A DNA stretch of 64,000 nt from Bacillus sp. ISL-18 (GTDB lineage: Bacteria > Bacillota > Bacilli > Bacillales > Cytobacillaceae), in assembly GCF_018613415.1 (NCBI RefSeq), contig NZ_JAGGQG010000006.1, positions 124,001 to 188,000 of the forward strand, given 5' to 3'. The notes beneath the pieces are model-generated. The model worked only from the letters and a program-made list of their open reading frames with translations. It did no database searches and had not been told where the DNA came from. This document shows positions 7,260 through 55,312 of this stretch, piece by piece. A program made the position numbers and the translations under genes. How positions within the stretch are numbered: the stretch's first letter is position 1; each line of letters starts with the position of its first letter.

Positions 7260-10200
7260 ATGGGCAAAAGTCAAATAAGATCAACAAAGCGGTTGGCTAT
7301 TCATGTTTCCATGGCGATGACTCTGTTCATTCCAACTATCATAAGTACTAGTCTACCTATTCAAAAGGCTGAAGCAGCTGGCTCAAGTGTAGCCGCACAG
7401 GCCATAAATGAGACCAAAGTAGCTGATTTAAGAGTGGAGTATCGAAATAATCCAATCGGAATTGATTTACAAAAACCACGATTTAGTTGGGAAATGCTCT
7501 CAAACCTTCGGGGTCAAAAACAAACAGCCTATCAATTACTTGTTGCCACCAGCCCGAATAAGCTGACACCGGATTCTGTAGATATTTGGAATAGCGGCAA
7601 AGTAAATTCCAGTGAATCTAATGCGGTTGAATATGGAGGTAAAGCTTTTAAAGCTTCCACCCGTTATTATTGGACGGTTAATGTATGGGATAAGGAAGGA
7701 AAAAAATTTGAAACAGCTCCAGCCTATTTTGAAACCGGTCTATTAAGTACAGATGGAGTAGCAGGCTGGGACGGAGCCAAATGGATATCCTTAGACGACT
7801 CGGTGAAGAATGGAGCACCAATGTTACGGAAAGAAACTCCTCTTAAGGGTGAAGTAAAGAGCGCTCGTCTGTACATCTCGTCACTGGGCGTTTTTGATGC
7901 ATTTATTAACGGGAAAAAATTAGGCATCGTGAATGGGGATGGAGGTACAGCTTACGAGCTGCTCGCACCCGGCTGGACCAGTTATGATAAAAACATTAAT
8001 TATATGACCTATGATGTAACAGATTATCTCCAAGGCAAAAACAGTGTCACTTTAGCAGCAGTGCTTGGAAATGGCTGGTACAACAGTAGGATCTCTGATG
8101 GGGCTAACTATTACAATTCAAAGGGAAATGATCTTGGATTGCTGGCTAAAATGCAAGTAACCTACAAAGATGGATCCACCCAAACGATTGTTACCGATAC
8201 GAACGGCTGGAAAGCTACCAATAATGGTCCATATTTGGCAGACGATATATATGACGGTCAGACTTATGATGCAACCAAGGAAATGACCGGATGGAATAAC
8301 AATGGATTTGATGACGCAGAGTGGAAAGGCGTGAAGGAACACCAATACAAACAAGCATTCCCGGCTGCAACAATCACATCTTATAATGGCACACCTGCAC
8401 AAATCGTAGACAGCTTTGACCAAACACCGATTTCAGTAACTACCGCTATCGGTGTCATAAATCAAGAATCAAGTAAAAACGGTAAAGGTGAAATCAAAAT
8501 AGATACTTCTAGATCCGTAAATACTCGTTCCGAAGCGAAGGATTATAAGGTGAATTCAGCAACTGGCGATACAGTAATTTATGACCTTGGACAAAACATG
8601 GTGGGCATCCCACGCATCACAGTAAAGGGGAAAGCCGGAACTCAAATTAAATTGCGGTTCGGCGAAATCCTTAACGACAACAGTGCAGGAGCAGATGGTC
8701 CAAAAGGGTCCATCTATACAGCAAATCTTCGGTCTGCAAAAGCTTCCCTTTTCTACACACTAAAGGGCAGTGAAGAAGGAGAAACTTATCAGCCTTCCTT
8801 AACTTTCTTTGGATTTAGATATGTGGAAATTTCTGTTTTAACACCAGGAGCCACGGTCGAATTAGATAATGTGACTGGTAAGGTTGCGACATCGGCAGTG
8901 GATGTGACAGGTACACTCGAGACTTCCAATCAAGATGTCAACCAATTAATTAGCAACATCAAGTGGGGGCAACGCGGTAACTATTTATGGGTTCCAACGG
9001 ATTGCCCACAAAGGGATGAACGTCTTGGCTGGATGGGGGATGCCCAATTATTTGCTAAGACTGGCATGTATAATATGGATTCCTCCAACTTCTTTGAGAA
9101 TTTTACGGATAATATGGTTAACGCCCAATCTGCCAACGGTTCGTATCCAGTAACAGTACCGGCTAGTTCATTCGGTTTAAGGGCTCCCGCTACCTCGGGG
9201 TGGTCAGATGCTGGGATTATTATTCCGTGGACCCATTGGCAAATGACGGGAGATACGACGTTAATTAATAAGGCATACAACAGCATGGAGAAATACATGG
9301 ATATGATGTATAACCAAACCGGAGAAACCTACCGGGGACCTGGCAGTATTTTCGGTGACTGGTTAGCGTTCCAGGGAACAAATAACATGTTAATGAGCGA
9401 CGCCTACTACGCCTATGATGCCAAGTTAATGGCACAAATGGCTGCCGCCCTTGGCAAGGACAATGATGTAAAGAAATATGAGACACTGTTTAACAATATT
9501 AAGAAAGCCTTTATTAGAAACCATATTAATGTAGATGAAAATGGGAACTTAACAATTCAATCATCGCGTGAAGAAGGTTTTGGAATTGCCTTTTATCCAA
9601 GAGAAGATAATAGTCAAACTTCATTATTATGGGCTTTGAAGCTCGGATTCTATGACAATGAAAATCAAAAACAACAGATGATTAAGCTGCTAGTCGATAA
9701 TATTCGTAATAATGATCAATATAAGGCTGCACATCCTGATAGTTCCCGAGTAAAGTATGCGGAGAATACATTATCTGTAGGATTTCTCGGAGTGAATGTA
9801 CTTGCCCCTGTGCTGACGAACATCGGACAATCTGATTTGGCCTATACGCTGCTATTGCAGGATCAAATGCCATCTTGGCTTTATTCCGTAAAGAATGGTG
9901 CAACAACCATTTGGGAACGCTGGAATTCTTACTCGGTTAAAGATGGATTTGGCGATGTAAGCATGAACTCGTTCAATCACTATTCATACGGTGCTATTGG
10001 TGAATGGATGTATGATGAGATGGCAGGTATCTCCAATGATCCGGACCATCCTGGTTTCAAGCACACGATTCTTCAGCCTACCATTGATAATGATAAGCGA
10101 ATCACCTGGGCGAAAGGCTCGTTCGATTCTGTTTATGGGAAGATTAAAAGTGAATGGGAAGTTAAAAATGGGACGTTGACCTATTATGCGACCGTACCGG

Positions 10201-10385
10201 CTAATACGACTGCGACCCTTTATATTCCTACAAATAATGTGAGTACTGTTAAGGAAAGCGGACAGCTAATTGCTAAGGCAAAGGGAGTTAAGTTTATCGA
10301 GTTTAAAGATGGTAAAGCGGTCTATGAACTTGAATCCGGAAGTTATGAATTCCGATCCATTATCGCTGGCTCTAAACCAGAATAG
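7260..10385 (+). CDS. Secreted GH78 alpha-L-rhamnosidase
   Basis: A 1041-residue enzyme that should remove terminal alpha-L-rhamnose from rhamnosides outside the cell. It begins with a Sec signal peptide (basic start, hydrophobic stretch, AEAAG cleavage region near residue 39). Next come the fibronectin-like N-domain (VEYRNNPIGIDLQKPRFSWEM), a rhamnose-binding/N-terminal beta domain around residues 180-380, a CBM67-like concanavalin domain around 420-540, the (alpha/alpha)6 catalytic barrel and a C-terminal beta domain. The catalytic motif DCPQRDERLGW spans residues 581-591, with Glu587 as likely acid, and Glu886 in WERW as likely base. The start follows AGGAGG by 5 bases. Its location after the rhamnose transporter fits release followed by uptake. 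No LPXTG or SLH anchor is visible, so it is probably free or loosely wall-associated. Confidence 0.95.
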   Translation: MGKSQIRSTKRLAIHVSMAMTLFIPTIISTSLPIQKAEAAGSSVAAQAINETKVADLRVEYRNNPIGIDLQKPRFSWEMLSNLRGQKQTAYQLLVATSPNKLTPDSVDIWNSGKVNSSESNAVEYGGKAFKASTRYYWTVNVWDKEGKKFETAPAYFETGLLSTDGVAGWDGAKWISLDDSVKNGAPMLRKETPLKGEVKSARLYISSLGVFDAFINGKKLGIVNGDGGTAYELLAPGWTSYDKNINYMTYDVTDYLQGKNSVTLAAVLGNGWYNSRISDGANYYNSKGNDLGLLAKMQVTYKDGSTQTIVTDTNGWKATNNGPYLADDIYDGQTYDATKEMTGWNNNGFDDAEWKGVKEHQYKQAFPAATITSYNGTPAQIVDSFDQTPISVTTAIGVINQESSKNGKGEIKIDTSRSVNTRSEAKDYKVNSATGDTVIYDLGQNMVGIPRITVKGKAGTQIKLRFGEILNDNSAGADGPKGSIYTANLRSAKASLFYTLKGSEEGETYQPSLTFFGFRYVEISVLTPGATVELDNVTGKVATSAVDVTGTLETSNQDVNQLISNIKWGQRGNYLWVPTDCPQRDERLGWMGDAQLFAKTGMYNMDSSNFFENFTDNMVNAQSANGSYPVTVPASSFGLRAPATSGWSDAGIIIPWTHWQMTGDTTLINKAYNSMEKYMDMMYNQTGETYRGPGSIFGDWLAFQGTNNMLMSDAYYAYDAKLMAQMAAALGKDNDVKKYETLFNNIKKAFIRNHINVDENGNLTIQSSREEGFGIAFYPREDNSQTSLLWALKLGFYDNENQKQQMIKLLVDNIRNNDQYKAAHPDSSRVKYAENTLSVGFLGVNVLAPVLTNIGQSDLAYTLLLQDQMPSWLYSVKNGATTIWERWNSYSVKDGFGDVSMNSFNHYSYGAIGEWMYDEMAGISNDPDHPGFKHTILQPTIDNDKRITWAKGSFDSVYGKIKSEWEVKNGTLTYYATVPANTTATLYIPTNNVSTVKESGQLIAKAKGVKFIEFKDGKAVYELESGSYEFRSIIAGSKPE

Positions 10386-18136: not shown

Positions 18137-19942
18137 TTATCGCGCAAAATCTTCAAAGTTTAAGCTATCTGACAATATTAGCGCCTGTATAACTAATAGA
18201 GTGTACGCTGCAGTTGATGCGTTTTTTAGTGAAATTTGCAGCTGCTCCTCAATTTGCTTTATCCGATATTGGATACCGCCGATTGATAACGTCAACTCAT
18301 CCATCGTTTCTTTTAAACGCTGGCTATTTAATAAATAGACGTAAAGAGTGTGCAACAATTCCTTTTTACGCGGATCATTGAAATTGTATAAGTCTTTTAA
18401 CGTCTTTTTCGCCATTTCATGCAGCTGTTCATTACTCATGTTCTTTACGATATCCCCAAGCATTCCTAAATCTTCGTAATCTGTTAGCAGCTTTTGGTTA
18501 GGGAAGCGCTGTGCGACACGCGCCTCTTGAAGAGATTGTTCGAAATCTTTAAAGTTGCTAAACGTCCCGCTAAGTCCTACTGAATATTTATAATGGCTAT
18601 TTTGCTTCTCCATTTTTTGGAAAATTTTCGTAATTTTCTTTTGCCAACCTTGTTTATCACTATTTAGTGAGTTGAGGAGAGCAATTTCTTCCCCGAGTAC
18701 GGCAAAAATACAAGGTAAATCCCACTCTCTGGCTAACTTAGACAGCTCTGTTAGCTGGTCATGAATGTCAATAATTTCGTGATTTTTCTTTTTCTTTTTC
18801 ACACTAATAATACCTGTAGAAAACGGCGGCTGAAACTTAAAAGGTAAAAATTTATAGTAAGATTCGATATCTTTAATATTTCGACTATGAATTAAGCGCT
18901 CTAATAGCGAGCTGCGCATACGTTGTTGCTCCTCAAACTGTGCCTCCTCGTATAAAATACATAACGCCACGACTGTCGAAATACGCTCTAAAAATAAGTG
19001 GTCGTTTTCATCCATATGCTTTTCATCAAAGTAAAAAAACGAACAAGTGGCGTAACTTTTTTTATTAATAAGAGCAGGTGCCGTCAGCTTCCAATAATTA
19101 TCGCCTTTATAATGCGAAACGTTGTGTTTATCAACAAAATGAGATAATTTTGCCTTATCTTTTGTTATGACTAGCTGCTGTTCATCTGATAAACCAATTT
19201 GACTTAACGAATTGCCGTGAATATCCTCAATCAAAATCGGGATATTCAACAGCTCATACGCAGCCTGCACAATTTCATCCAGCGAATGCTTATCTGTTAC
19301 TTTTTTCGTAAGTTGACCTTGAAATATTGAAATTTTTTCGAGCATTTGCTTATGACGCAAAAGGGAATCATATGTCATTTCAAGCTCGGATAGAATGTTA
19401 TCATTTTGATAGAGGTTAATAAGATCCTCCTTTTCTTCGAGCCAATCGCGCTCCAAACGCACTCTAAACTCGCAGCATGGATCACCTTTCGCAACACACT
19501 TATACTCAACGGCAATAATAGACTCGCCAAACTCATATGTCAATGCACCACTCGCAAAGCCGCATAACATATGACAAACACATTCATTTGCTAAACCGTA
19601 ATTTTTAAGGTGTAATGCTGCTTCAAATGATTCTACCCATTGTCCCCACGTATCGATACATTCAATTGTACCGTCCGGATGGCGTACAATTTCCCCCATG
19701 AAAATTACATCTTTTACGTGACCTAAACGCGAATGTCTTTTACCGACAGGATTGATTGAGTTTTTATTTTGGAGCAAATTTTTTGCTGATTCCATCCCAA
19801 ACTCTTTACCAAATCGGAATAAAAAGCCTTTCGTTTTATGAGAGCCAATGTTGTTAAATAAATTGTTTTTTAATGTGTGGAAGGCATTTGCCGACATTAA
19901 AATATTGTTCGTTTCACTAGAATCAAATGCAATTTCACTCAT
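18137..19942 (-). CDS. Aromatic-sensing regulator: XylR_N/V4R domain fused to PucR-type helix-turn-helix
   Basis: A 601-residue regulator. Residues about 15-160 form XylR_N plus V4R, the phenolic sensor domain of DmpR/XylR/MopR. Cys123, Glu146, Cys149 and Cys157 repeat exactly the 23-3-8 spacing of the zinc ligands of MopR (Cys155, Glu178, Cys181, Cys189 as I recall). A GAF-like segment (about 230-330), a PucR GGDEF-like middle domain and a C-terminal PucR HTH_30 (LKETMDELTLSIGGIQYRI) follow. There is no AAA+ domain, so it does not act through sigma-54. ATG 19942 is preferred: AAAGGGG lies 11 bases upstream; GTG 19951 is too close to it. It is divergent from the hydrolase gene, which it presumably activates when it binds the aromatic inducer. 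Confidence 0.88.
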   Translation of the reverse strand: MSEIAFDSSETNNILMSANAFHTLKNNLFNNIGSHKTKGFLFRFGKEFGMESAKNLLQNKNSINPVGKRHSRLGHVKDVIFMGEIVRHPDGTIECIDTWGQWVESFEAALHLKNYGLANECVCHMLCGFASGALTYEFGESIIAVEYKCVAKGDPCCEFRVRLERDWLEEKEDLINLYQNDNILSELEMTYDSLLRHKQMLEKISIFQGQLTKKVTDKHSLDEIVQAAYELLNIPILIEDIHGNSLSQIGLSDEQQLVITKDKAKLSHFVDKHNVSHYKGDNYWKLTAPALINKKSYATCSFFYFDEKHMDENDHLFLERISTVVALCILYEEAQFEEQQRMRSSLLERLIHSRNIKDIESYYKFLPFKFQPPFSTGIISVKKKKKNHEIIDIHDQLTELSKLAREWDLPCIFAVLGEEIALLNSLNSDKQGWQKKITKIFQKMEKQNSHYKYSVGLSGTFSNFKDFEQSLQEARVAQRFPNQKLLTDYEDLGMLGDIVKNMSNEQLHEMAKKTLKDLYNFNDPRKKELLHTLYVYLLNSQRLKETMDELTLSIGGIQYRIKQIEEQLQISLKNASTAAYTLLVIQALILSDSLNFEDFAR

Positions 19943-19998
19943 TAAAGTCACATCCCCTTTGAGTTTCTATTTCCCATATTACAAAAACAAAACTAACT

Positions 19999-27945: not shown

Positions 27946-29388
27946 TTAATAAATAACAACCGGCTCATAGGTGCTGAGATTACTATATACAGTTTTCATA
28001 ACGCTTGGCGGAGTGTTGACACAGCCGTGTGACCCTGCCGAAAGATAGGCTTTACTGCCCCAATTGCCTCGCCAGCTGGCATCGTGGAAACCTTGGCCAT
28101 CATTTGTAAAAGGAGCCCAATAATTAACATCTACCTGATAAGTGATTTTCCCGTTTTCTCTGCCGGTTAGTACGGCAGGTGTCTGCTTATAAAGGATATA
28201 CCAAACTCCTGGTGATGTATCATGATTGGTACTATGTGTGCCAGTAACGACATTCGTTGTGACCACTAATTTCCCGTTTTTATAGATCCAAATTCGCTGC
28301 TCAGCAATGGAAACTTCAGCATACGAATTGCCAATCCCATTGTTTGTAATAGCATCATATCCGTAGCCTTCACCCTTCCAGCCATTTCCATAAATATTAG
28401 AGGCGGAAACCGATTTTTCTCCATTTTCAAGTGCTTGCTTAATACGCGGTACTTCTTTATCAACATTTATGGCCCAGCCATAGCCTTTCCCTTTAACCGA
28501 TATCATCGAACCCGAATGGGTCTTGAAGGTAAAATCTTTATTTAATGTAGATTGGGAATGGTTAATCTCAGTAAGCTTATTTTTAATATCACCATCATCA
28601 TTTAGCGTAATCTTTAAATCTTTATTAATAGAGGCATTTTTAATTAAGTCCCGTGCGGTTAATGAGAAAATTTTATCCTGCACCTTATAATCAACGGTCT
28701 GAGCAAGGAATTCCTCCAGCTTTTTTTTCTCATTTATTACAAACTCGCTGTCTTCTTTAATGGGCTGTATATATATTGGACTTAAATGAATCTCACTAAT
28801 ATATTTGTGCTTATCGTAGTCATTCAAAAGACTGCTGACATCATACTGCTCTCCGCTGATGCTTTTAGATACAACAATTTTGCCTTGTTCCAAACGAACC
28901 ACCGCATCTTGCGGAGCTTTTAAATTTTGATTCATGGCAAGCAGCTTTTCTTCCACCTGTTTTTTCAATGTCTGGTATCGAAACTGATCCTTACTGACCG
29001 GCAGCAATGAATAATTTTTTGCTTTTGAGGAAGGAAAGAATGTCCACTGGCTTTTTAACAATTTTTTGAAGCTGGGCAGATCTTTAGCTGTAAACCTCAT
29101 CTTTGAATCTTTCCCATCTAATATCTGTTGATCACCAATATATACTATATTTGTTAAGGTGGTTGTTTTTAATTTATTTAGTGCCTGCTCAGTCGTCATG
29201 CCACCAACATCGATGCTATTTATCTTGATTTCTGAATTGAAGTGGTTTGCCTGGTAGTAGCTTCCTGCTGCGATGATGAGGGCGATAATAAAGATAATAC
29301 TAAATGCAATAAGTTTCCATCCTCCAAACCACTTAGTTAAGTTTACGCGTTGGTTCTCTAGTTCTTGAATATTTGCTGTGCTTCCCAT
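27946..29388 (-). CDS. Membrane-anchored L,D-transpeptidase (YkuD) with PG-binding domains
   Basis: A 480-residue protein. One membrane segment (about residues 28-50) leaves the rest outside the cell. Two PG_binding_4 modules follow (roughly 60-190 and 220-320), then a YkuD catalytic domain from about 355 to the end with the nucleophile Cys in SHGCVNTP and the preceding His. It should form 3-3 crosslinks or attach proteins to peptidoglycan. ATG 29388 has GGAGGAATT upstream; an in-frame ATG 5 codons earlier lies before that site. It is transcribed alone and ends at a hairpin terminator. Confidence 0.93.
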   Translation of the reverse strand: MGSTANIQELENQRVNLTKWFGGWKLIAFSIIFIIALIIAAGSYYQANHFNSEIKINSIDVGGMTTEQALNKLKTTTLTNIVYIGDQQILDGKDSKMRFTAKDLPSFKKLLKSQWTFFPSSKAKNYSLLPVSKDQFRYQTLKKQVEEKLLAMNQNLKAPQDAVVRLEQGKIVVSKSISGEQYDVSSLLNDYDKHKYISEIHLSPIYIQPIKEDSEFVINEKKKLEEFLAQTVDYKVQDKIFSLTARDLIKNASINKDLKITLNDDGDIKNKLTEINHSQSTLNKDFTFKTHSGSMISVKGKGYGWAINVDKEVPRIKQALENGEKSVSASNIYGNGWKGEGYGYDAITNNGIGNSYAEVSIAEQRIWIYKNGKLVVTTNVVTGTHSTNHDTSPGVWYILYKQTPAVLTGRENGKITYQVDVNYWAPFTNDGQGFHDASWRGNWGSKAYLSAGSHGCVNTPPSVMKTVYSNLSTYEPVVIY

Positions 29389-29753: not shown

Positions 29754-31634
29754 ATGAAAACTTTAAAACTGAATGAATTATTACATATTCGTCAAGAGAA
29801 TGAATTATGGTTTGCCAACAATGAAAGATCTATTTTTGTTTCGAGCCAGGCTTTTGGGACAATGCAGCGTGATTTAATTGAGAATATTGGGATTAATCGG
29901 ATGAAAACCTTTTTCTTTAAGTATGGCTATCAATTGGGGGTAGAAGATGCAAAAGAGGTGGCAAAAAAAGACTCATTGAGTTTGCTTGAAATGATTGAAT
30001 ATGGTCCGATTATTCATGCTTTAAAAGGACATGCGAAATCTCGCATCACCGAGAAAGATTTTGAATTGGAAGGAAATGAAATTAAATCGTTTCGCTTTAA
30101 AGGAGTGTGGGAAAATTCATATGAAGCGGAACAACATCTTCAAAATTTTGGCATTAGCCAGAGCCCTGTTTGTTATACGTTAACTGGGTATGCCACAGGA
30201 TATATTACAGGTGTGTTGGGAATGGACGTTTTTTTCAAAGAATTGCAATGCCAGGGACAAGGGGCACCGTGTTGCATCTGGGAAGGGCGTCTTGTTTCAG
30301 AATGGAAGGAAGAGGCGGAGGAATTCTTTTCTTATAGTAAAGAACTGCCGATATTAAAGGAATTGGAACAAACAAACGTAAAACTTATGCTGGAAAGAAA
30401 TAATCTCGCACTTGTGTCAAAAACGTATAATGAGATGACCAATGAGCTAATTAAGGGAAATAGCATCGATTCCATCCTCGATATTTTACATAAACAACAT
30501 TATGTTCCCATTATCGTGGAGGATGGTCGTCAAAATGTCATTGCCTGTAAAGGCATCACTCTTGAAGACTATGATTTCATTAGAGAAAAGTTTTCTGAGA
30601 TGGCAGACAAAAAGCAATGCCATTCCAAAGTACGTGTTTTCTCGATGGAAAATGGGACTCGACTGATGTCTCCAATTTTTCTATTAGGTAAGGTTGTCGG
30701 TTATTGTTCTTTTCTGTATGAACGAGAAAGAACCCCTAATTATGAGATCGACTCGATGATTCTTGATCGCTTAGCGTCGATTTGCTCGCTGCTGTTTTTA
30801 AAGGAAAAAACGGAAGTGGAATCGTTGGAACAAGTGAAAGGTCATTTTCTTGAAGAAATTATTAGCGGAAAATATACACAACAAGAAATTATGAGGAAAG
30901 CGGATTTTATTCAGTTAGATCTATCCGATCACTATCATATTGTAGTGTTGACCTACAAGTATTTGAATTCATGTGACGAAAAGGAATTGACGCTTCATAA
31001 AAAAACGTTTGAAAGGGTCTCTGCTTACTTTCGAGAAGAAAAAAACCTCAATGTGTTAATCGGTCAGCAACCTGACAGCTTAATTCTCCTGATGACAGAG
31101 AAACAAGTGCGTCAGCAAAACATGGAGAAAACAATTCGGACTTTAGTCTCCTATTTAAAAAAGAAAATAAAAAATGCTTTGTTCTTAGCGGGAATAAGCT
31201 CCCACTACAGTAACATTCTAGAAGCAGGAGTTGCAATGGAAGAAGCACGTTCAGCAGTGCGACTTTCTTCAAGGAGTGAACCGATCACGCTTTTTAGTGA
31301 GTTAGGCATACTTGGTATCTTAATCAATGACCAAAACGAACAAGTGATCAAGAAAATGATCCGAGATCAACTTGGGGTTCTCTACGAGAATCTAGATAAG
31401 CATAAATTAGAATTGATAGAAACGCTCTACCATTTTCTAGAGCAAGGGGGGAACTTGGATCAAACAGCAGAATCCCTCGTTCTATCTAAAAGCGGACTTC
31501 GTTATCGTCTCAATAAAATTACCGACCTCCTTGATTGTGACTTGCGTGATCCCCAAAGACAATTTCAGTTGATGATGGCGTTAAAAGCATTGAAAATTAT
31601 TGAGCATGAAAGAATTAAAAAAATTCAAGAATAG
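29754..31634 (+). CDS. Second aromatic-sensing regulator: XylR_N/V4R plus PucR-type helix-turn-helix
   Basis: A 626-residue paralogue in architecture of the regulator at 18137-19942. XylR_N/V4R covers residues about 10-180 and Cys140, Glu163, Cys166 and Cys174 again keep the 23-3-8 spacing of the MopR zinc site. A GAF-like region, a PucR middle domain and a C-terminal HTH_30 (LDQTAESLVLSKSGLRYRLNKI) follow. No AAA+ domain is present. AGGGAG lies 7 bases before the ATG. It precedes, in the same direction and after a strong terminator, the phenol/catechol operon and is the likely activator of that operon, comparable to regulators of Bacillus phenol hydroxylase genes. Confidence 0.9.
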   Translation: MKTLKLNELLHIRQENELWFANNERSIFVSSQAFGTMQRDLIENIGINRMKTFFFKYGYQLGVEDAKEVAKKDSLSLLEMIEYGPIIHALKGHAKSRITEKDFELEGNEIKSFRFKGVWENSYEAEQHLQNFGISQSPVCYTLTGYATGYITGVLGMDVFFKELQCQGQGAPCCIWEGRLVSEWKEEAEEFFSYSKELPILKELEQTNVKLMLERNNLALVSKTYNEMTNELIKGNSIDSILDILHKQHYVPIIVEDGRQNVIACKGITLEDYDFIREKFSEMADKKQCHSKVRVFSMENGTRLMSPIFLLGKVVGYCSFLYERERTPNYEIDSMILDRLASICSLLFLKEKTEVESLEQVKGHFLEEIISGKYTQQEIMRKADFIQLDLSDHYHIVVLTYKYLNSCDEKELTLHKKTFERVSAYFREEKNLNVLIGQQPDSLILLMTEKQVRQQNMEKTIRTLVSYLKKKIKNALFLAGISSHYSNILEAGVAMEEARSAVRLSSRSEPITLFSELGILGILINDQNEQVIKKMIRDQLGVLYENLDKHKLELIETLYHFLEQGGNLDQTAESLVLSKSGLRYRLNKITDLLDCDLRDPQRQFQLMMALKALKIIEHERIKKIQE

Positions 31635-47151: not shown

Positions 47152-47203
47152 GAATTTTGTCCGTTAGGCTTCCTTTAAGAACAACCCAGAGCAAGAAAGC
47201 AAA

Positions 47204-47240
47204 CAAAAAAGGGAACAACCCGGAGTGATCAGATGTTCCC
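47204..47240 (-). terminator. Terminator of P450 gene
   Basis: On the minus strand GGGAACA / TGTTCCC with a 16-base loop is followed by TTTTTTG. It ends the cytochrome P450 transcript. Confidence 0.85.
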
Positions 47241-47252
47241 GAACTCAAATCT

Positions 47253-48485
47253 TTACTTATAAACCTTCATTGGTAGGTTAGTTAAAGACTGCCCCGTAGC
47301 AGAAGCAGTTAAATTCTCTTCTAATTGAAACCCTTCTACAGGTTCAATACGAGAAAACTTCTGTAAGAATGCCTCTAGTACAATCTTCATTTCTAATCGT
47401 GCAAGAGGGGCACCCAAACAGATATGTGGACCATTTCCGAAGGTCAAATGCCTTTTATTATTGGAACGATGAATGTTTAAAGAAAATGGGTCATCAAACA
47501 TATCTTCATCCATATTACAAGCACTCATCCACGCAATGACTACATCACCTTTTTTTAATTCAGTGCCTAATAAATTATTGTCTTGTTTAACAGTGCGATC
47601 TCTCCTTGACATTTGAAAACGATATCGGAGCATTTCTTCGACCGCGTTTGGTACTAATTCTATATGATCTCTTAGTTCCCCATATAAAGACTGGTTATCA
47701 TAAAGTAAGGAATAGAAAGAATTGGCAATCGCATGACTTGTTGTTTCAACCCCGGCCCCTAAAAGCAGCATGGTGGTTTGTACAATCTGCTCATCCGTAA
47801 ATCTTTCGCCATCTACCTCGGCACGGATTAAATCGGAGATAATATCTTCAGAAAGGTTCGAACGTTTTTGAACGACAATCGGATAAAGGTATTGAAAATA
47901 TTCTTTTGCAGCCTTTTGTTTTGCCAGTTCAATATCTTCCAGCCTTTCTTTGTCGTAAGGTTGGAAAAGAATATCAACCCATTTTTTGAATTGATGCTGG
48001 TCTTGTACCGGTACGCCAAATAAATCGGTTATGACCATACTAGGCAGCGGCGCAGCCAAGGCTTCAACAATGTTAACCGTCGAGTTTTCTTGTATGGCCT
48101 CCACAAGTTCAGTTGCAATCTGTTGAATACGCGGCTCCCAGTTCTTTAAACTGCGCGGAGTAAAAGCAGCTGCTAACAAGGAACGTGCTTTGCGGTGTTG
48201 AGGAGGGTCTTGAAGGGTAATATTCATTATAGGTGAAGATTTTTCTTGTTTGTCTTTCGCTCCAACAAAGATGGTGGTTCTAGGTCCTTCACTTGAAAAA
48301 TATTCATAGTTACTTAGCACCTGTTTAACATGTTCATATTTAAACACATTCCATGTATTTGTTTTTTCATGATAATAAACAGGGTGATTGTAAAGCATTT
48401 TTTTGTACCAATTAATAGGAAAAAATTCTTCTGAACGTGACTGGAAATTTGTGATTTCATTCATTGGAATGACTTCTTGACTCAT
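47253..48485 (-). CDS. Cytochrome P450, CYP109-like
   Basis: A 410-residue soluble class I P450. I-helix oxygen-binding motif GAGVETTSH, K-helix ExxR in EEMLR and the heme-thiolate motif FGNGPHICLGAPLARLE with its Cys are all intact. Sequence style (DPPQHRKARSLLAAAFTPR and KNWEPRIQ) resembles CYP109 (B. subtilis YjiB), which oxidises fatty acids and terpenoids. No ferredoxin partner is adjacent. GGAGGAAGAAATT precedes the start. It is divergent from a PadR regulator, likely its repressor. Confidence 0.93.
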   Translation of the reverse strand: MSQEVIPMNEITNFQSRSEEFFPINWYKKMLYNHPVYYHEKTNTWNVFKYEHVKQVLSNYEYFSSEGPRTTIFVGAKDKQEKSSPIMNITLQDPPQHRKARSLLAAAFTPRSLKNWEPRIQQIATELVEAIQENSTVNIVEALAAPLPSMVITDLFGVPVQDQHQFKKWVDILFQPYDKERLEDIELAKQKAAKEYFQYLYPIVVQKRSNLSEDIISDLIRAEVDGERFTDEQIVQTTMLLLGAGVETTSHAIANSFYSLLYDNQSLYGELRDHIELVPNAVEEMLRYRFQMSRRDRTVKQDNNLLGTELKKGDVVIAWMSACNMDEDMFDDPFSLNIHRSNNKRHLTFGNGPHICLGAPLARLEMKIVLEAFLQKFSRIEPVEGFQLEENLTASATGQSLTNLPMKVYK

Positions 48486-48725
48486 AATTTCTTCCTCCTT
48501 AATAAATGAATCTTACTTAATTTAAATTACTCTAATCAGAGTAGTTTTTGTAGAGTAAATGGTACTAAATTGTTTATTTTAAATCTTCTGAGAAAACTAG
48601 ATAAATGGGCTTTATTGCACTTGTATGATAAAAAAGGATTCAGAGGATGGGGGGATGGTGGATAATGGCTATTATGATAAAATTAAAATTAGGTTAAGAA
48701 CTAATTAAGAAAGGGGGATTTCTTT

Positions 48726-49274
48726 ATGTCTCTTTCGTTATTTATACTCGGGAGTTTGGCTAATGAAAATAGCAACCCCTATCAACTAAAGAAAGCATTG
48801 CTAGATGTCATTCCCATAACAATAAGCGAAGGGAAATTTTACTATAATTTTGAATCATTACAAAAAAGGGGACTCATCGAAACAGTTGAAACCATTCAGA
48901 TAGTCAATCGTCCCAACAAAACCCTGTACGGGATTACTCCGGATGGAAGACGCTTTCTTGAGCAAGAGATTTATAACAGCTTTAAAAAAGTCTCAAAGAT
49001 AGAAGATTTATATATATCCATCTACCTATTAAAATTCATTGATCCAGTCAAGGCCGCTTTGTTCCTTGAGGAAACGATAAAAAAAGAAAAGATTCAATGG
49101 GATGAATTTAAACGGGCTAAAGATAAAGAAGAATTCAAAGAACGAATGGAATTACTTGATGAAAAACAAATGAGGGCGGTTCAATTTATTAGTGAACATG
49201 CATTTAGCCAATCAGAACATAATATTTATTGGATGGAAAAACTCTTAGCCTTTTTAAAGCGAATTGAAAAATGA
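48726..49274 (+). CDS. PadR-family transcriptional regulator
   Basis: A 182-residue regulator with an N-terminal PadR winged helix (LFILGSLANENSNPYQLKKAL ... LQKRGLIETVE) and a C-terminal Vir_act_alpha-like helical dimerisation domain from about residue 90. AAAGGGGG precedes the ATG. It is divergent from the P450 gene with a 240-base spacer. PadR proteins often repress genes for phenolic-acid or drug detoxification; control of the P450 is inferred from position. Confidence 0.85.
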   Translation: MSLSLFILGSLANENSNPYQLKKALLDVIPITISEGKFYYNFESLQKRGLIETVETIQIVNRPNKTLYGITPDGRRFLEQEIYNSFKKVSKIEDLYISIYLLKFIDPVKAALFLEETIKKEKIQWDEFKRAKDKEEFKERMELLDEKQMRAVQFISEHAFSQSEHNIYWMEKLLAFLKRIEK

Positions 49275-49400
49275 AATAAGAAAAGCAAGCGATAAAAAAA
49301 TAACTTTTTTAGGAAGATGGCTCTGATTAAATGATATGCTCCCGATAAAGTAGACAGATGAAATAATAAAAATCTGTTTTACTTTATTGGGGGTTTTTTT

Positions 49401-49561
49401 ATGGCCAAAAGTGCTTATTCTGCACAAGAAAAACATGAGTTAATTAAATACAGAGAGAAATGAAGCGATTGGAGCGCGACAATGAACGTCTTCGTGCAGA
49501 AAATGCATTCTTAAAAAAGTTGCAGGAACTAGAAAGGAGGCGTTTAAAGAGGCATCAATGA
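49401..49561 (+). pseudogene. IS3 OrfA, internally deleted
   Basis: ATG 49401 starts MAKSAYSAQEKHELI and stops at 49463; the C-terminal leucine-zipper part (MKRLERDNERLRAENAFLKK) follows in another frame from 49460 to 49561. The helix-turn-helix in between is absent, a loss of roughly 60 codons. The slippery A AAA AAG (49513-49519) used for -1 frameshifting into OrfB is preserved. Confidence 0.8.
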
Positions 49562-50439
49562 GCCACATTCGGTTAACAGACAAATATTTAGCTATCCAAG
49601 AGCTTCATGAAACAGAGAATTTATCCATTGTACTCTTATGTGAGATTGCGAGAATCTCACGTTCAGCTTATTATAAGTGGATTAACCGTTCCCCTTCAGA
49701 AAATGAGCGTTTTAATGAAGAAATCCTTAAGGAGATAAAGCTTCTATATAAAAAGGTAGACGGCATATATGGTTATCGTCGAATAACATTGAACCTCAGA
49801 CGTACCTTATCAAAGGATATTAACCATAAGCGGGTGTATAGACTAATGAGGGCTGCAGGCATTCAATCGGTTATCCGACGTAAAAGGAAAAAATATAAGC
49901 CGAGCACGCCACAACATGTAGCCGAGAATATATTGAATAGAGAATTCACCGCTGAGAAGCCAAATGAGAAATGGTTAACTGATGTGACTGAAATGAAATA
50001 TGGGGTCTCGCAGAAGGCTTATTTGAGTGCAATATTAGATTTGTACGACGGATCGATTGTTAGTTATGTATTAGGCACTTCTAATAATAATCCGTTGGTA
50101 TTTAAAACCTTCGATTTAGCGTTGGAGGCTAACCCAGGAGCTAAACCCCTTCTTCACAGTGATCGAGGGTTTCAATACACTTCTCCTACTTTTAAAAAGA
50201 AAATTGATAAAGCAGAGATGGTTCAAAGTATGTCAAGGATCGGAAGATGTATCGATAATGGACCAATGGAGGCTTTTTGGGGAACATTGAAAAGTGAAAA
50301 GTATTATCTGAACAGGTACAACACCTTTGAAGAGTTGAAGAAAGACATTGAGGAGTACATAAAATTTTATAATTATGAACGATTACAAAAAAGACTAAAC
50401 GGCCTTAGTCCCTTAGAATACAGGGCTAACGCCGCTTAG
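49558..50439 (+). CDS. IS3-family transposase OrfB (DDE integrase core)
   Basis: A 293-residue OrfB: HTH_21 region (IYGYRRITLNLRRTL) and rve domain with Asp in LTDVTEMKYG, Asp in LHSDRGFQYTS and Glu in MEAFWGTLKSE, the full DDE triad. It would normally be made as an OrfAB fusion by -1 slippage at 49513-49519 (frame continues KKVAGTRKEAFKEAS into this gene). With orfA deleted, transposition is doubtful although OrfB looks complete. Confidence 0.92.
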   Translation: MSHIRLTDKYLAIQELHETENLSIVLLCEIARISRSAYYKWINRSPSENERFNEEILKEIKLLYKKVDGIYGYRRITLNLRRTLSKDINHKRVYRLMRAAGIQSVIRRKRKKYKPSTPQHVAENILNREFTAEKPNEKWLTDVTEMKYGVSQKAYLSAILDLYDGSIVSYVLGTSNNNPLVFKTFDLALEANPGAKPLLHSDRGFQYTSPTFKKKIDKAEMVQSMSRIGRCIDNGPMEAFWGTLKSEKYYLNRYNTFEELKKDIEEYIKFYNYERLQKRLNGLSPLEYRANAA

Positions 50440-50659
50440 TGTCTTTTATTTATTTCCGCTGTCTACTTGACGGGTGGCACTTCACTTTTCGGGAGTCCAT
50501 TGTATTTTAGTAATTTTTCCTTGGGTTACTGCCTAAAATGTTGAATTAATTGTCTTCGTTTTTTTACAATATTCATACAGGTGTTTCAGAAAGGGCTGAA
50601 ATCAGTCTACTTCAACATCAATTAAATAAAATTTCTATATATTATTGTAATAATGGATT
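50440..50659. other. Spacer between IS3 element and orphan rpoA
   Basis: Apart from the IS right end, no gene, repeat or terminator could be recognised here; the rpoA stop codon lies at 50660 and no hairpin follows it clearly. Confidence 0.4.
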
Positions 50660-51607
50660 TTAATCATCTTTGCGTACGATTATACCCAAACTTTCTAATT
50701 TATCTATGATCTCTTTTAAAGATTTTTGTCCTAAGTTGCGTAATTTTCTTATATCTTCTTCCGACTTATTAGCTAAGTCATCAATAGTATTAATCCCATT
50801 GCGTTTTAAACTGTTAAAAGAACGAACAGAAAGATCTAAATCCTCAATAGTCAGGTTAAGAATGTCTTTTTCTTTTGAAACTTCTTCTCTTTCCAACATA
50901 ATTTGGCTATCTTGTAATTCAGGATTAAGTCCTACTAAAATAGAAAGATGTTCATTAAACATTTTTGCACTTTCAGAAATGGCTTCGCTGGGCCCTAAAC
51001 TCCGATCTGTCCAAAGTTCAAAATATAACCTTTCAAAACTATCCAATTGACCTACACGAGTGTTCTCAACTAAATAACTGGCGCGTGAAACCGGTGTATA
51101 GATTGAATCTATTGGTATGACTCCTTCTTGAAGGTCACCACGTTTGTTTTGCTCTGCAGGAACATAACCATGTCCACGTTTTGCAGTTAGACGCATTCTA
51201 AAATGTACATCTTCTTTAAGGGTAGCAAGATGCAAATCGGGGTTTAAGATCTCTACATCACTATCATGAGAAATATCATCAGCGGTTATTGTACCGGTTC
51301 TATGTACATCGATCATCAATTCTTTCTCATCTTCAGAGAGAATATTCATAGATAATTTTTTTATGTTCAATATGATAGTTGTTACATCTTCTTCTATCCC
51401 ATCAATAGTTGAAAATTCATTCTGCACCCCATCTATTTGTATGGAAGTGACAGCGGCACCGGGGAGTGAAGTTAAAAGGATGCGACGTAATGAGTTGCCC
51501 AGTGTCGTTCCAAATCCTCGCATGAGTGGTTCAACGACAAACTTTCCATACTTGCCATTCTCACTAATCATAACCTTTTCAATTCTTGGTACTTCAATTT
51601 TTAACAT
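50660..51607 (-). CDS. Divergent orphan RNA polymerase alpha subunit (second rpoA)
   Basis: A 315-residue full-length alpha subunit. The N-terminal dimerisation and assembly domain is intact ([66 protein letters not shown]). The C-terminal domain keeps the UP-element contacts: Arg262 and Asn265 in VRSFNSLK and RNLGQKSL. Compared from memory with B. subtilis RpoA it differs at perhaps 35-40 percent of positions, far more than expected for the housekeeping copy in a Bacillaceae. It is not in the ribosomal protein operon (rpsM-rpsK-rpoA-rplQ): neighbours are an IS3 element and decayed sequence. AAAAGGGG lies 12 bases before the ATG. It is therefore most likely a second, paralogous alpha subunit. 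Confidence 0.88.
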
Positions 51608-52128
51608 CGGAATTATACACCCCTTTTACTCATTAACACAAAAACAACCTATTATCTTTAGTTAATATACTCCAAGTACTATGAAGAATGCTAGTTTAAC
51701 GGATAAAAAATGTATTCAACGATAATTTTCTTGGGCAGCAGCAGGAAAGTGGAATTTGTAATTTACGAATTCAGGAGAATCTTTTAAGAATTTCTAAAGG
51801 GTTTGGTTAAAGCATAATGTCCGTACAAACATATCATCATTAGGTAAACCTAATTTTACATATAATAAGCTTCTTTTAAAAAACGTCTAACAATATCCCT
51901 TGCTTCAAGCTAGCGGTCACTCCGTTTCACCCTATGGGATGAGGAAAACTAGAATTTCATGGGCTTTAAAGACTTCAAATCTTTAACTAGAAATAGTAAT
52001 TCCGTTCAAGTTACACTGAACTATAACTTCACCATCTATGGTTGACACCCCTTAATAATCCATAATAAATATAAGGTGAATCTTTGTTTAATAGTAGCCG
52101 CCCGATAAACGAGCTTGAACCTTAAAAG
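51608..52128. other. Non-coding, probably decayed spacer
   Basis: About 520 bases without an open frame of note and with stops in all frames. I see only AT-rich sequence and the rpoA upstream region (TATAAT-like sequences on the minus strand near 51610). No recognisable RNA or repeat. Confidence 0.5.
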
Positions 52129-52453
52129 ATTCGAATTGTAATTGCAGAGGATTTGGAAAAGTTGTTCGAGGAATTAGTTCCCTACTGAATTTGGAAAATG
52201 ATAAGGATGTCGTGGAGCAGATGAGGGATGGAGAAGAGGAACTTACTCTTGTTCACTAATTACAACCGGAAGTTTGTTTCATGGATATAGATATGTCTAA
52301 AAGACGGGGATGCAGAGTAATCATTATATCCCACCTTAGCAAGCACTGGTTATTTTCAACGTGCATTAAAAGATGATGAAAGATATTTATTATTGAAGGA
52401 TAGCCCGGGTGAGGAGTTAGCCTGCTCCATTCGCAGCATTATGCATAGAAGAT
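52129..52453 (+). pseudogene. Decayed DesR-like (NarL family) response regulator
   Basis: Pieces of a receiver domain occur in order with several stops and frame changes: IRIVIAEDL at 52129, CFMDIDMSKRRG (phospho-acceptor region), TGYFQRALKDD and LLLKDSPGEELACSIRSIMH, which correspond to the DesR/YocG phrases for the start, Asp loop, beta-4/alpha-4 and hinge. The C-terminal HTH is lost. The kinase partner is not present. It shows that the region between rpoA and the next operon is a gene graveyard. Confidence 0.75.
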
Positions 52454-53121
52454 CATTGAATACAAACCTGCCGTATTACTTGCTACCAATGCTATTTGGT
52501 AAGTCGTGAATTAACCAAATAAAAATTAATTAAAAATTTCATCTATGTTTTAAAATATGAATTAAAATATATTTCAATTCATATGTCATTATTAAATTAT
52601 ATAGTAACATATAAGTTGTTTTTCTGTAATGTTGAAAAGGCTTTTTATTTCCTCTACTTCCGTTAGCGCTCCAGGTTTGTTAGACCCAATTAACTTTGAC
52701 ACACTTCATTTCCTTCTAGCCGTAATTGCATTAGTATTATACAGCCCCTTAAAACTATTCAGAAACATACTTTTATCAGTAGCCAGAATGATAAAGGGAA
52801 ATGATATTGGAGAGGCAAAAAGAAGGCATAGCTATTCATAGCTCCAGGGACAAACCAAGGTAAGACTAAGAAATACATAGATGTTAAATAGTGAAACTAA
52901 TGTTGTTAAAGACGAATGAAAAATTTAGAGAGTATTAGGGGGAGTAATCATTTATAAATTTAAATTTTGATAGAAGGATAAAAAAAGAATTAAACATTAT
53001 AACGTTATATTGACTGACCTTAAAATAAGTGGTAACCTTATTCTTGTAGAAAAAACAAAGAAGTAGATGTAAACGCATACTAGTACCCATTTTATAAGGT
53101 CTACTGAAAAGGATGAGGGAA
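52454..53121. other. Non-coding spacer before glucosaminate-type operon
   Basis: AT-rich, without a convincing gene. A 70-codon frame at 52629-52841 with one hydrophobic stretch lacks a ribosome site and is not accepted. A cre-like box lies at 53068-53081. Confidence 0.5.
53068..53081 (+). promoter_or_regulatory. cre-like box upstream of amidohydrolase operon
   Basis: TGTAAACGCATACT matches the cre core TGNAARCGNWWWCA at all but the last position and lies 41 bases before the start codon. CcpA control of the sugar-acid operon is plausible. Confidence 0.5.
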
Positions 53122-54225
53122 ATGAAAGATCGTTTCGTACTACAGAATGTAAAGATGGTGGATGGAAATTCTGTAGATATTATTGTAGAAAATAGAAAAA
53201 TTGTAGACATTGTTTCGGCTGGAACTGGATGCGGTGACAAAATAGTCAACTATAAGCATAAGGTATTTGTTTCCAGTGGCTGGATTGATATGCATGTCCA
53301 TGCCTTTCCAGAATTTGATCCATATGGGGATGATGTGGATGAGATTGGCTATAAGACCGGGGTAACAACGATTATTGATGCTGGCAGTACGGGCGCCGAT
53401 CGTTTGCCTGACTTGGTAAGCAGCTGTAAAAAGTCAAAAACAAATGTGTTCGCTTTTGTAAATATCGCACGAATTGGCCTAAGCCGAATTGATGAGTTAT
53501 CCGATCTTTCTTGGCTTGATGAAGATGCACTGAAAAGGGCCATTGCGGAACACAAGGATTTTATCGTTGGACTGAAAGCAAGGATTAGCAAAAGCGTGGT
53601 CGGTTCAAATGGAGTAGAACCATTAAAAATAGCTCGCAAATTTTCTAAGGACACCGATTTACCGCTAATGGTTCATATCGGTTCGGGGCCACCGGATATT
53701 AGCGATGTCCTTGATTTGCTTGAGAAAAAGGACATCATAACTCATTACTTAAATGGGAAAGCCAATAATTTATTTAATGAGAATGGAAAACCTCTTCCTA
53801 AATTTCTGAATGCAATTAAACGGGGAGTCCATTTGGATGTTGGCCACGGGAATGCAAGCTTTTCTTTCCAAACGGCAATACAAGCGAAAAAGTATGGTAT
53901 TCACTTTGATACGATTAGTACGGATATCTATCGTAAAAATCGTTTAAACGGTCCTGTTTATAGTATGGCCAATGTCTTATCAAAATTTTTGTATTTAGGT
54001 TATTCCCTAGAAGAGGTCATTGATGCCGTTACAGTTAATGCAGCAAAGTGGTTGAATAAACCAGCTTTAGGAAGGATCGCGACAGGGGATACAGCGAACC
54101 TCACATTGTTCACTGTTGAGGATGAAGCGATTTCTTTACTGGATTCTGAGGGAGAAGAGCGAAAAACAGATCAAAAGATTGTTGTAAAAGGAGTGGTGAT
54201 TAATGGAGAATACATTGAATGCTAA
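53122..54225 (+). CDS. Amidohydrolase/deacetylase-family metallohydrolase (EF_0837-like)
   Basis: A 367-residue dihydroorotase-like amidohydrolase. Metal ligands: DMHVHAF (HxH), carbamylated Lys in GLKARIS, His in MVHIGSG, His in THYLNG and the catalytic Asp in STDIY; HLDVGHGN is a further family mark. It belongs to the group found with PLP-dependent DgaE-type genes in Enterococcus and others, proposed to remove acyl groups from amino sugar acids. ATG 53122 fits AAGGA at 8 bases; ATG 53113 overlaps that site. Its 3' end overlaps the next gene by 23 bases, so they form one operon. Confidence 0.85.
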   Translation: MKDRFVLQNVKMVDGNSVDIIVENRKIVDIVSAGTGCGDKIVNYKHKVFVSSGWIDMHVHAFPEFDPYGDDVDEIGYKTGVTTIIDAGSTGADRLPDLVSSCKKSKTNVFAFVNIARIGLSRIDELSDLSWLDEDALKRAIAEHKDFIVGLKARISKSVVGSNGVEPLKIARKFSKDTDLPLMVHIGSGPPDISDVLDLLEKKDIITHYLNGKANNLFNENGKPLPKFLNAIKRGVHLDVGHGNASFSFQTAIQAKKYGIHFDTISTDIYRKNRLNGPVYSMANVLSKFLYLGYSLEEVIDAVTVNAAKWLNKPALGRIATGDTANLTLFTVEDEAISLLDSEGEERKTDQKIVVKGVVINGEYIEC

Positions 54226-55312
54226 ATATGGTTTGAAGAGGGTCATCAATGCAAGTGGCAGGATGAGTATACTAGGTGTTTCCGCTCCAACGGACACTGT
54301 TATGGAAGCCATGAAAATTGGCGGGCAAAATTACGTTGAAATCTCTGATTTAGTCGATAAAGCAGGACAACATATTGCTGGATTGCTTCAATCTGAATCG
54401 GCAGTGGTTGTCAACTCGGCATCAAGTGGAATTGCCCTTTCTGTAGCGGCGATTGTTACCGAAGGAAACCGACGAAAAAGCGAACGACTTCACCAAGAAC
54501 TGATTCAAAAAAATGAAATCATTATGCTAAAGGGCCATAACGTACAATACGGAGCACCGGTCGAAACGATGATTTTCCTTGGCGGAGGGAAATTAGTGGA
54601 GGTTGGTTATGCAAATGAGGGGAAAGCGGAACATATTGCTGATGCTATAACCGAGAATACAGCGGCTTTCCTTTACGTCAAATCCCATCATGCTGTTCAA
54701 AAAAATATGATTTCGGTTGAAGAAGCCTGGGAAGTGGCTAAAGCGAATCATGTTCCATTGATAGTCGATGCGGCTGCAGAAGAGGATTTAAAAAAATATG
54801 TACAAGTTTCGGATTTAGCGATTTACAGCGGTTCGAAAGCAATTGAAGGTCCTACTTCTGGTATTGTAGCCGGGAAAGAAAAATATATCGAATGGGTAAA
54901 GGTTCAACTGCACTGTATCGGCAGAAGCATGAAAGTCGGTAAAGAAACAACCTTTGGACTATTGCAGGCGTTAGATGAGTATTTTGTCAAAACTGACAAT
55001 AGTGAAAAGGAAAAAGCAAGTCTGCAAGTTCTCAAATCTCTTGAGTCGATTCACGGTGTAAAAGTACAGATTGTACAAGATGAAGCTGGACGCGCTATTT
55101 TCAGAGCACGTATTCAGATTGATCCTGCTGTTACGAAGACAACAGCGAAGGAAGTAAACGACAAACTAAAAAATGGTGAAATTGCAATTTATACCCGTGA
55201 TTACGGAATTCGACAGGGCTTTTTCGATATTGATCCACGTCCATTGCAAGGCGATGACATCTACGTGATTGAAGCTACATTAAAAGCGATTTTAGGAGGA
55301 AGAGAAATATGA
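54203..55312 (+). CDS. dgaE: DgaE-family PLP-dependent ammonia-lyase (SelA-like)
   Basis: A 369-residue fold-type I PLP enzyme related to SelA. PLP Lys is in IYSGSKAIEGPTSG and the Asp before it in LIVDAAAEEDL. The family member DgaE of Salmonella removes ammonia from D-glucosaminate 6-phosphate to give 2-keto-3-deoxygluconate 6-phosphate. AAAGGAG precedes the ATG by 9 bases. It is coupled by overlap to both the amidohydrolase before and the aldolase after. The actual substrate here may be an unphosphorylated amino acid sugar, as no PTS is present. Confidence 0.85.
   Translation: MENTLNAKYGLKRVINASGRMSILGVSAPTDTVMEAMKIGGQNYVEISDLVDKAGQHIAGLLQSESAVVVNSASSGIALSVAAIVTEGNRRKSERLHQELIQKNEIIMLKGHNVQYGAPVETMIFLGGGKLVEVGYANEGKAEHIADAITENTAAFLYVKSHHAVQKNMISVEEAWEVAKANHVPLIVDAAAEEDLKKYVQVSDLAIYSGSKAIEGPTSGIVAGKEKYIEWVKVQLHCIGRSMKVGKETTFGLLQALDEYFVKTDNSEKEKASLQVLKSLESIHGVKVQIVQDEAGRAIFRARIQIDPAVTKTTAKEVNDKLKNGEIAIYTRDYGIRQGFFDIDPRPLQGDDIYVIEATLKAILGGREI

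Follow-up and report, generated by a model that had tools for sequence, protein, structure and literature searches.

Extra genes for the alpha subunit of RNA polymerase

The alpha subunit starts the assembly of bacterial RNA polymerase and bears a surface that is touched by many activators. Extra alpha genes are already known in a few lineages: a survey of 1,055 genomes (PMC3294249) lists a pair of rpoA genes for Francisella, for three Chloroflexus, and for S. avermitilis, along with two recent duplications. Here we describe a second, orphan rpoA in a bacterium that is placed in the genus Neobacillus ("the genus" in all our genome counts). In our tree, the clade that this genus forms takes in rpoA rows of two named Neobacillus, on which we base the placement. 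The gene lies in a 64,000-nucleotide stretch of DNA, which we will refer to as the window. The orphan resembles the α1/α2 system of Francisella, as presented in PMC3294249, in that there are two non-identical full-length alphas per genome and accelerated evolution. In Francisella, however, both genes are reported from all of the sequenced genomes of the genus and are attributed to a lineage-specific duplication, whereas an extra full-length copy is present in just 3 of 61 genomes of our genus, where it is linked to conjugation genes. Also, α2 of Francisella is described as having glutamine instead of Arg45, which contacts the β subunit, and as forming mainly heterodimers. In contrast, this arginine is present in all 19 of the orphan proteins, as it is in 107/107 housekeeping sequences, and most of the orphan's dimerization residues are kept.

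The extra rpoA genes of Chloroflexus and S. avermitilis (rpoA1/rpoA2) are in other phyla, and the text of PMC3294249 that was available mentions no link to conjugation genes. It does report that the Chloroflexus proteins, like those of our family, have no drastic substitutions in the regions for dimerization or for binding β and β'.

Stand-alone alpha genes are also found on Streptomyces plasmids. Twenty-one Streptomyces plasmid records gave matches, and we looked at two of them, NZ_CP108493 and NZ_CP109461. The alpha genes (L143, NZ_CP108493.1, 5944-6960; L144, NZ_CP109461.1, 5001-6026) encode proteins that are 87% identical to each other, and as in our case, there is no ribosomal cluster in the stretches that we read. 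Unlike our family, these are from Actinomycetota, they are only 42–43% identical to the window's protein, and no gene in the 11–13 kb is named as part of a type IV secretion system (T4SS). Closer to home, pBS32 of B. subtilis is a plasmid from the Bacillaceae with a gene for a subunit of the host's RNA polymerase, but this subunit, SigN (ZpdN), is described as a sigma factor tied to cell death after DNA damage (PMC6751061, PMC10601692) and is not a core subunit. Plasmid-encoded subunits of RNA polymerase are already known, then, in the form of sigma factors (SigN is one), and Streptomyces plasmid records hold alpha genes. Searches of the open-access literature gave no paper on an rpoA of bacilli that is linked to plasmids or conjugation, nor on a divergent one that is under selection and adjoins a conjugation operon. 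Should the orphan be functional, it would be a case of a mobile element swapping a core subunit instead of a sigma factor.

A complete and divergent second rpoA

The window corresponds to G000:C40:124001-188000, where G000 is a 6.24-Mb assembly in 42 contigs and C40 is a contig of 418 kb. The second rpoA is on the minus strand at 50660..51607 and has 315 codons with no internal stops. From the open reading frame, domain profiles, and alignment, its product is a complete alpha subunit of 315 amino acids, with the assembly domain, the linker, and the C-terminal domain (CTD). All three Pfam domains of alpha are present, and the protein exceeds the equivalog cut-offs of two NCBIfam models for RpoA (353.1 bits for TIGR02027, with a cut-off of 227.8, and 450 bits for NF003515, with a cut-off of 406). 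It did not attain the cut-offs of some sibling rpoA models, such as NF003518. An earlier reading of the sequence by itself (the sequence-only reading) had already described the gene as encoding a full-length alpha with an intact assembly domain, and the profiles bear this out.

We found rpoA at four places in this genome. The housekeeping gene (C18:29000-29941) is inside the S13-S11-rpoA-L17 cluster, which is where the sequence-only reading had expected it; that reading had recommended checking for another rpoA in the genome. The housekeeping protein is 66% identical to the window's protein (153 of 228 residues in the N-terminal domain, or NTD, and 45 of 68 in the CTD), so the description of the window's copy as strongly divergent holds. 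By comparison, the genome's housekeeping alpha shares 89% identity with P0063, the housekeeping alpha of a record labelled Bacillus tropicus. The third place is on C39, a plasmid-like contig of 151 kb, which has another intact orphan rpoA that is 90% identical to the window's gene, and the fourth is a 75-amino-acid piece on C15 (81% identical). The window's gene is not, as first thought, a lone orphan. A second divergent alpha is nevertheless rare, and the sequence-only reading had called it unusual in bacilli: we sampled the order evenly for 150 genomes, all at least 95% complete, and at E ≤ 1e-60 rpoA had a single match in 148 of them, none in one, and several only in G000.

As the sequence-only reading had noticed, the gene sits between an IS3 element and decayed DNA. 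The IS3-type element (49327..50488, plus strand), has a transposase reading frame at 49558-50439. Relative to the copies in three other genomes (G002, G006, and G039), it has an internal gap of about 0.5 kb, which is perhaps the loss of the first open reading frame. On the other side of rpoA and divergent from it is a decayed remnant of a response-regulator gene (51858..52450, plus strand), which we recognized by eye from translated fragments. This remnant is decayed in genome G025 too, and related DNA (66–72% identity) is found in other Neobacillus genomes. Between the remnant and rpoA is a conserved leader (51608..51701, minus strand) that is common to the four loci of the family that we read. 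The leader has an AGGAG/AGGGG-type ribosome-binding site and a TATAAT/GATAAT box, which we infer to be a promoter; a scan for the sigma-70 consensus listed no site at the leader. Codon adaptation of the window's rpoA is ordinary (0.47, versus a median of 0.448 for the window) and is below that of the housekeeping rpoA (0.59), so it gives no sign of high expression.

Elsewhere in the window, at 18137-19951 (minus strand) and 29754-31634 (plus strand), are two regulators in which XylR_N and V4R sensor domains are joined to GGDEF-like and PucR-type (HTH_30) output domains, according to Pfam. XylR_N/V4R sensors are better known in sigma-54 activators. By eye, the genes near both regulators look like those for aromatic ring cleavage.

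A family of alpha proteins linked to conjugation

Within the genus, full-length orphan rpoA genes are found in genomes G000, G025, and G057. There is also a relic of 93 bp at 98% identity in G038 (G038:C132:449837-449929), and the fragment on C15 of G000 (28591-28804) is 92% identical over 214 bp. These fragments at other sites suggest repeated arrival and decay of the gene.

On C39 and in G025 and G057, the orphan rpoA is convergent (tail-to-tail) with trbL, which is the last gene of a T4SS operon whose type is known from large plasmids of Bacillaceae. In G057, this operon encodes, by Pfam, TrbL_4, a VirD4-type coupling protein, a lysozyme/NlpC protein, a VirB4-like ATPase, and a TrbC/CagC pilin. 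Besides T4SS genes, C39 has genes for a relaxase (MobA) and for ParA. TrbL of the type linked to the orphan (88–100% identity) is present in 5 of the 61 genomes; a sixth genome had only distant matches (25–29%). At three of these five loci rpoA is beside trbL, and other genes are there in G015 and G053. In G053, the 5 kb beyond trbL are without rpoA, although this assembly is incomplete and has no rpoA anywhere, not even the housekeeping gene.

In the protein database, clade rpoA and TrbL were found on contigs of exactly equal size in N. cucumis (52,331 nucleotides), in a further record (17,822), and in Neobacillus sp. B4I6 (6,315,408), which implies that they are on the same contig, although this does not prove that they are adjacent. 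Among the 10 clade contigs of more than 10 kb, trbL is linked in six. We did not find trbL for the other four (the window's contig and those of 363,708, 6,468,885, and 75,404 nucleotides), but the database gives just the one longest contig per cluster, so that a link can be missed. On the 6,315,408-base contig of B4I6, TrbL is a 343-amino-acid VirD4-TrbL fusion from a decayed operon, and rpoA is full length.

Most of the 56 TrbL relatives in the database share no contig size with clade rpoA. Similarly, the Peribacillus and Mesobacillus plasmids NZ_CP011009, NZ_OY970401, and NZ_CP033045 (which MOB-suite classifies as non-mobilizable) have the same order of transfer genes up to trbL, with a VirD4-like coupling protein of the CD1115 family, but at the trbL end they have hypothetical, PAS-domain, and WD40 genes instead of rpoA. 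Because the T4SS is found without an adjoining rpoA on these plasmids and at two of the five Neobacillus loci, rpoA is dispensable for conjugation. Together with the unlinked TrbL relatives, this makes rpoA an accessory that is confined to one branch of the plasmid family and not part of the transfer machinery. A search of 72,556 plasmid records found no member of the clade; the best match (66.3%) came from a record labelled as a plasmid, where the gene sits in a ribosomal cluster.

The window's copy is different, as it has no T4SS neighbor. It lies in an island (50648..52711) that is homologous to the plasmid-type loci: similarity to G057 stops 12 bp past the stop codon of rpoA, and similarity to G025 extends about 1.1 kb upstream. 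Both outer flanks have relatives elsewhere in the genomes of the genus. The left flank, with genes for a P450 and a PadR-type regulator (47200..49329), is found in G007, G040, G003, and G005, which lack a full-length orphan rpoA. The right flank (52980..54400, plus strand), which is the start of an operon that looks by eye to be amidohydrolase-like, has relatives in G025, G057, G032, G050, and G027 that are distant from their rpoA genes. Because the homology ends just past the stop codon, the flanks are found elsewhere, and no TrbL match in G000 is on C40, the window's rpoA is best read as a chromosomal derivative of a plasmid-type locus. Where the sequence-only reading proposed looking for a conserved context in relatives, then, the family has one, linked to plasmids and conjugation, which that reading had missed; the copy that it described does not share it.

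On balance, we favor the explanation that the plasmid lineage encodes an alpha that builds a hybrid polymerase and that the window's gene is a chromosomal copy of it. In other words, a plasmid may supply a part for the host's transcription machine; the hint of this is that the second alpha of this soil bacterium comes from a family with ties to conjugative plasmids.

Selection on the orphan family

We compared the DNA of four copies (the window, C39, G025, and G057), which are open over 312–317 codons, and we computed dN/dS by NG86 counting. Pairwise values are 0.26–0.37, and all six pairs reject neutrality (p from 9e-4 to 2e-8). The ratio is lower in the CTD (0.07–0.20) than in the NTD (0.31–0.50). 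The orphan family is under purifying selection. Still, the orphan values are about 6–9 times the median for the housekeeping rpoA of the genus (median 0.041 and maximum 0.093, from 28 distinct genes, with 215 of 378 pairs in the usable range of dS).

The flank upstream of the gene has changed far more. In the comparison of the window with G025, 46 of 945 positions in the gene differ, with no indel in the aligned frame, versus 153 of 995 in the distal upstream flank; in the 1.1-kb flank, there are also 13 indel events whose lengths are not divisible by three. The leader, too, has changed little, with 4 differences in 94 aligned bases (p = 0.002 versus the 153/995 farther upstream). Even third codon positions have changed more slowly (23/315) than the distal flank (p = 0.0001). 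Selection on the protein alone leaves this unexplained, so recombination between copies may have occurred, and these contrasts between gene and flank are softer than their p values.

The evidence for selection is less clear for the window's copy by itself. From three-taxon differences, dN/dS on its branch is 0.33–0.35, but its private changes comprise 10 nonsynonymous and 7 synonymous ones (p = 0.06 versus neutral). Neutrality is rejected for the private changes in C39, G025, and G057 (p = 0.001, 0.03, and 8e-5, respectively). Six of the window's 10 private residues are found in no other row of the alignment, although this count is biased against the window's copy, since the alignment also contains close sisters of C39 and G057. 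One private change, G202R, replaces a glycine that is present in all 107 housekeeping rows and in the 18 other orphan rows. Private changes in the other three copies are also more conservative (mean BLOSUM score of 0.82) than the window's (-0.4; p = 0.03). These patterns suggest that the window's copy may be starting to decay. The sequence-only reading had named relaxed selection, with dN/dS near 1, as what would count against a functional orphan: the family's ratios are not near 1, while the private changes of the window's copy are not clearly distinct from neutral and strike conserved positions.

This is why we give some weight, though not the greater part, to the idea that a plasmid lineage picked up rpoA a single time, that the gene has no function that is important now, and that the window's copy is a pseudogene in the making. 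The raised dN/dS of the family, the private changes of the window's copy (including the unique residues such as G202R), its decayed flanks, and the fragments on C15 and in G038, which show that copies do decay, would all fit. Yet the four copies are open, every pair rejects neutrality, gene and leader are far more conserved than the adjoining flank, and, as described below, 25 sites are fixed in a clade-specific way. Also, the 6.3-Mb contig of B4I6 has kept a full-length rpoA while its trbL is just a fused remnant.

A frameshift in the housekeeping rpoA of G025 (L040, on G025:C3, around 9354-10315), where the orphan rpoA is intact, raised another candidate, that the orphan had replaced the housekeeping gene. 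We rejected it: the neighboring genes for an energy-coupling transporter are split as well, so the frameshift is probably an assembly error.

Functional residues

We compared the residues of 19 orphan (clade) rows with 107 housekeeping rows, which include 93 different aligned sequences. We took the roles of the positions for binding β or β' and for dimerization from work on E. coli, as given in PMC3294249. Arg45 and Leu48 (β contacts), Lys86 (β' contact), and Thr38, Ile46, and Ser50 (dimerization) are kept in all 19 clade rows. At other positions there is some variation, most of it conservative: the Phe35 position is phenylalanine in 17 rows and isoleucine in two, the Leu39 position is leucine in 18, and the Lys200 position is arginine in 18 and serine in one. 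The dimerization position Gln227, which is histidine in the housekeeping proteins, varies in 4 of the 19.

In the CTD, the DNA-binding residues Arg265, Asn268, Gly296, Lys298, Ser299, and Glu302 are also kept in 19 of 19 rows. The sequence-only reading had stated that the residues for binding UP elements are intact, and the alignment agrees. The Cys269 position is serine in 13 rows and cysteine in six, and the Lys297 position is glutamine in all of them.

We considered a site to be a fixed difference if at least 94% of the clade had one residue and at least 95% of the 107 housekeeping rows had a different one. There are 25 such sites. Eleven fall among the 68 residues of the CTD and 13 among the 228 of the NTD, so that they are denser in the former (p = 0.01), although this excess is not significant if we consider only the columns that are fixed in both groups (11/43 versus 13/105, p = 0.08). 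One of the fixed differences is at Tyr263, which is tyrosine in 107/107 housekeeping rows and phenylalanine in 19/19 clade rows. According to PMC2801614, this residue contacts Spx and is conserved in Gram-positive bacteria. Y263F is a mild substitution. R293Q (19/19 rows) and E297K (18/19 rows) adjoin DNA-binding residues. All of this is in line with an alpha that is able to assemble and to bind DNA and that meets regulators differently, and the kept residues are consistent with the earlier proposal of heterodimers or a specialized polymerase.

If the plasmid does encode part of a hybrid polymerase, as we prefer to think, then its alpha would be expressed from its own promoter as a minority of the cell's alpha, and it would join the host's β, β', and ω subunits as a homodimer or a heterodimer. 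The hybrid would retain the binding of UP-element DNA and would show an altered C-terminal surface, with phenylalanine instead of Tyr263 at the Spx contact and with Arg293 → Gln and Glu297 → Lys beside the DNA-binding residues. Promoter choice might be shifted, or part of the polymerase might be less responsive to those host regulators that use this surface, and either change would presumably benefit the plasmid. The window's copy persists off the plasmid and may be beginning to decay.

A more specific proposal, which we offer tentatively, is that conjugative plasmids of one family bring along a core subunit of their own: after transfer, this alpha would enter the host's enzyme, and the hybrid polymerase, with its changed CTD, would favor plasmid promoters and be partly blind to Spx-type host regulators. 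The chromosomal copies (in the window and apparently in B4I6) would then have been captured, giving two populations of polymerase. If the orphan is functional, these genes are natural alleles, with Y263F fixed, for testing Spx-type control of the alpha CTD in tractable soil bacilli.

The same substitutions could have another meaning. A plasmid-borne alpha might be a spare that escapes a factor, from a phage, a rival, or a host defense system, that binds or modifies the CTD of the host's alpha. The plasmid-type location of the gene would suit this, as would the fixed changes at CTD sites that face regulators or flank DNA (Y263F, A269N, R293Q, and E297K) in a protein whose assembly positions are kept. 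On the other hand, no candidate for such a factor was conspicuous by eye in our lists of open reading frames, and the arginine that phage T4 enzymes modify, Arg265 in E. coli, is kept in 19 of 19 rows. We consider this explanation to be improbable.

Origin of the orphan family

In the protein database, the clade has 19 members at 77–100% identity to the window's protein, and the next proteins are at 67%, among the best 120 of 7,997 candidates scored (those sharing the most words with the query). Two of the 19 are the window genome's own, and the named sources include Neobacillus sp. B4I6 (two copies), N. cucumis, Bacillus sp. ISL-40, and 'Priestia megaterium' (on a 6.47-Mb contig). No trbL link turned up for the ISL-40 record. 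P0016 (287 amino acids) and P0019 (234 amino acids) were excluded from the tree and from the residue counts. For the tree, full-length open reading frames were obtained from 110 of the 113 loci searched, and the housekeeping genes of the genus are represented by the 28 that have loci.

In the resulting tree of 125 rows, the 19 orphan rows form a single branch (support 100/100; stem 0.51), and each of the 106 housekeeping rows lies outside it. The sequence-only reading had asked for a tree of both kinds of alpha, and they do separate. Because the root was drawn at the midpoint, the tree shows that the clade is separate and not which lineage was its source. Among the matches listed for species representatives of GTDB 220, none exceeded 69% identity over a 134-amino-acid query, although near relatives of the window's genome may be absent from that set.

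Acquisition of a housekeeping rpoA from another genus, which might be imagined from the mere 66% identity to the host's own copy, is very unlikely: the clade is apart from every Bacillota housekeeping row that we sampled, the nearest proteins beyond it have the low similarity given above, and at E ≤ 1e-136 there was no further carrier outside the genus in sets of 193 genomes from the family and 397 from the order (both of which include members of the genus). Least probable of all is an artefact of assembly or contamination, even though markers indicate 8.27% contamination for G000, all three carriers exceed 5%, and 0 of 39 cleaner genomes of the genus have the orphan: the window's copy is on a 418-kb contig whose flanks match other Neobacillus genomes, the G057 assembly has just two contigs, the larger or smaller of which need not be guessed at, since the gene is on a 586-kb piece, and the protein databases hold independent records.

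We also considered and rejected a phage origin. Among 50,697 phage records there was no member of the clade (the best full-length match was 59.7% identical, and one 81-amino-acid piece matched at 74%), and viral contigs had no relative.

Another of the genus's genomes encodes a different protein with a piece of alpha. At L043 (G041:C103), positions 9565-9969 on the plus strand encode a 134-amino-acid protein in which, by Pfam, a Cro/C1-type helix-turn-helix is joined to the C-terminal domain of alpha. By eye, the region resembles a conjugative element, and this may be a second way in which the mobile DNA of the genus uses the alpha CTD.
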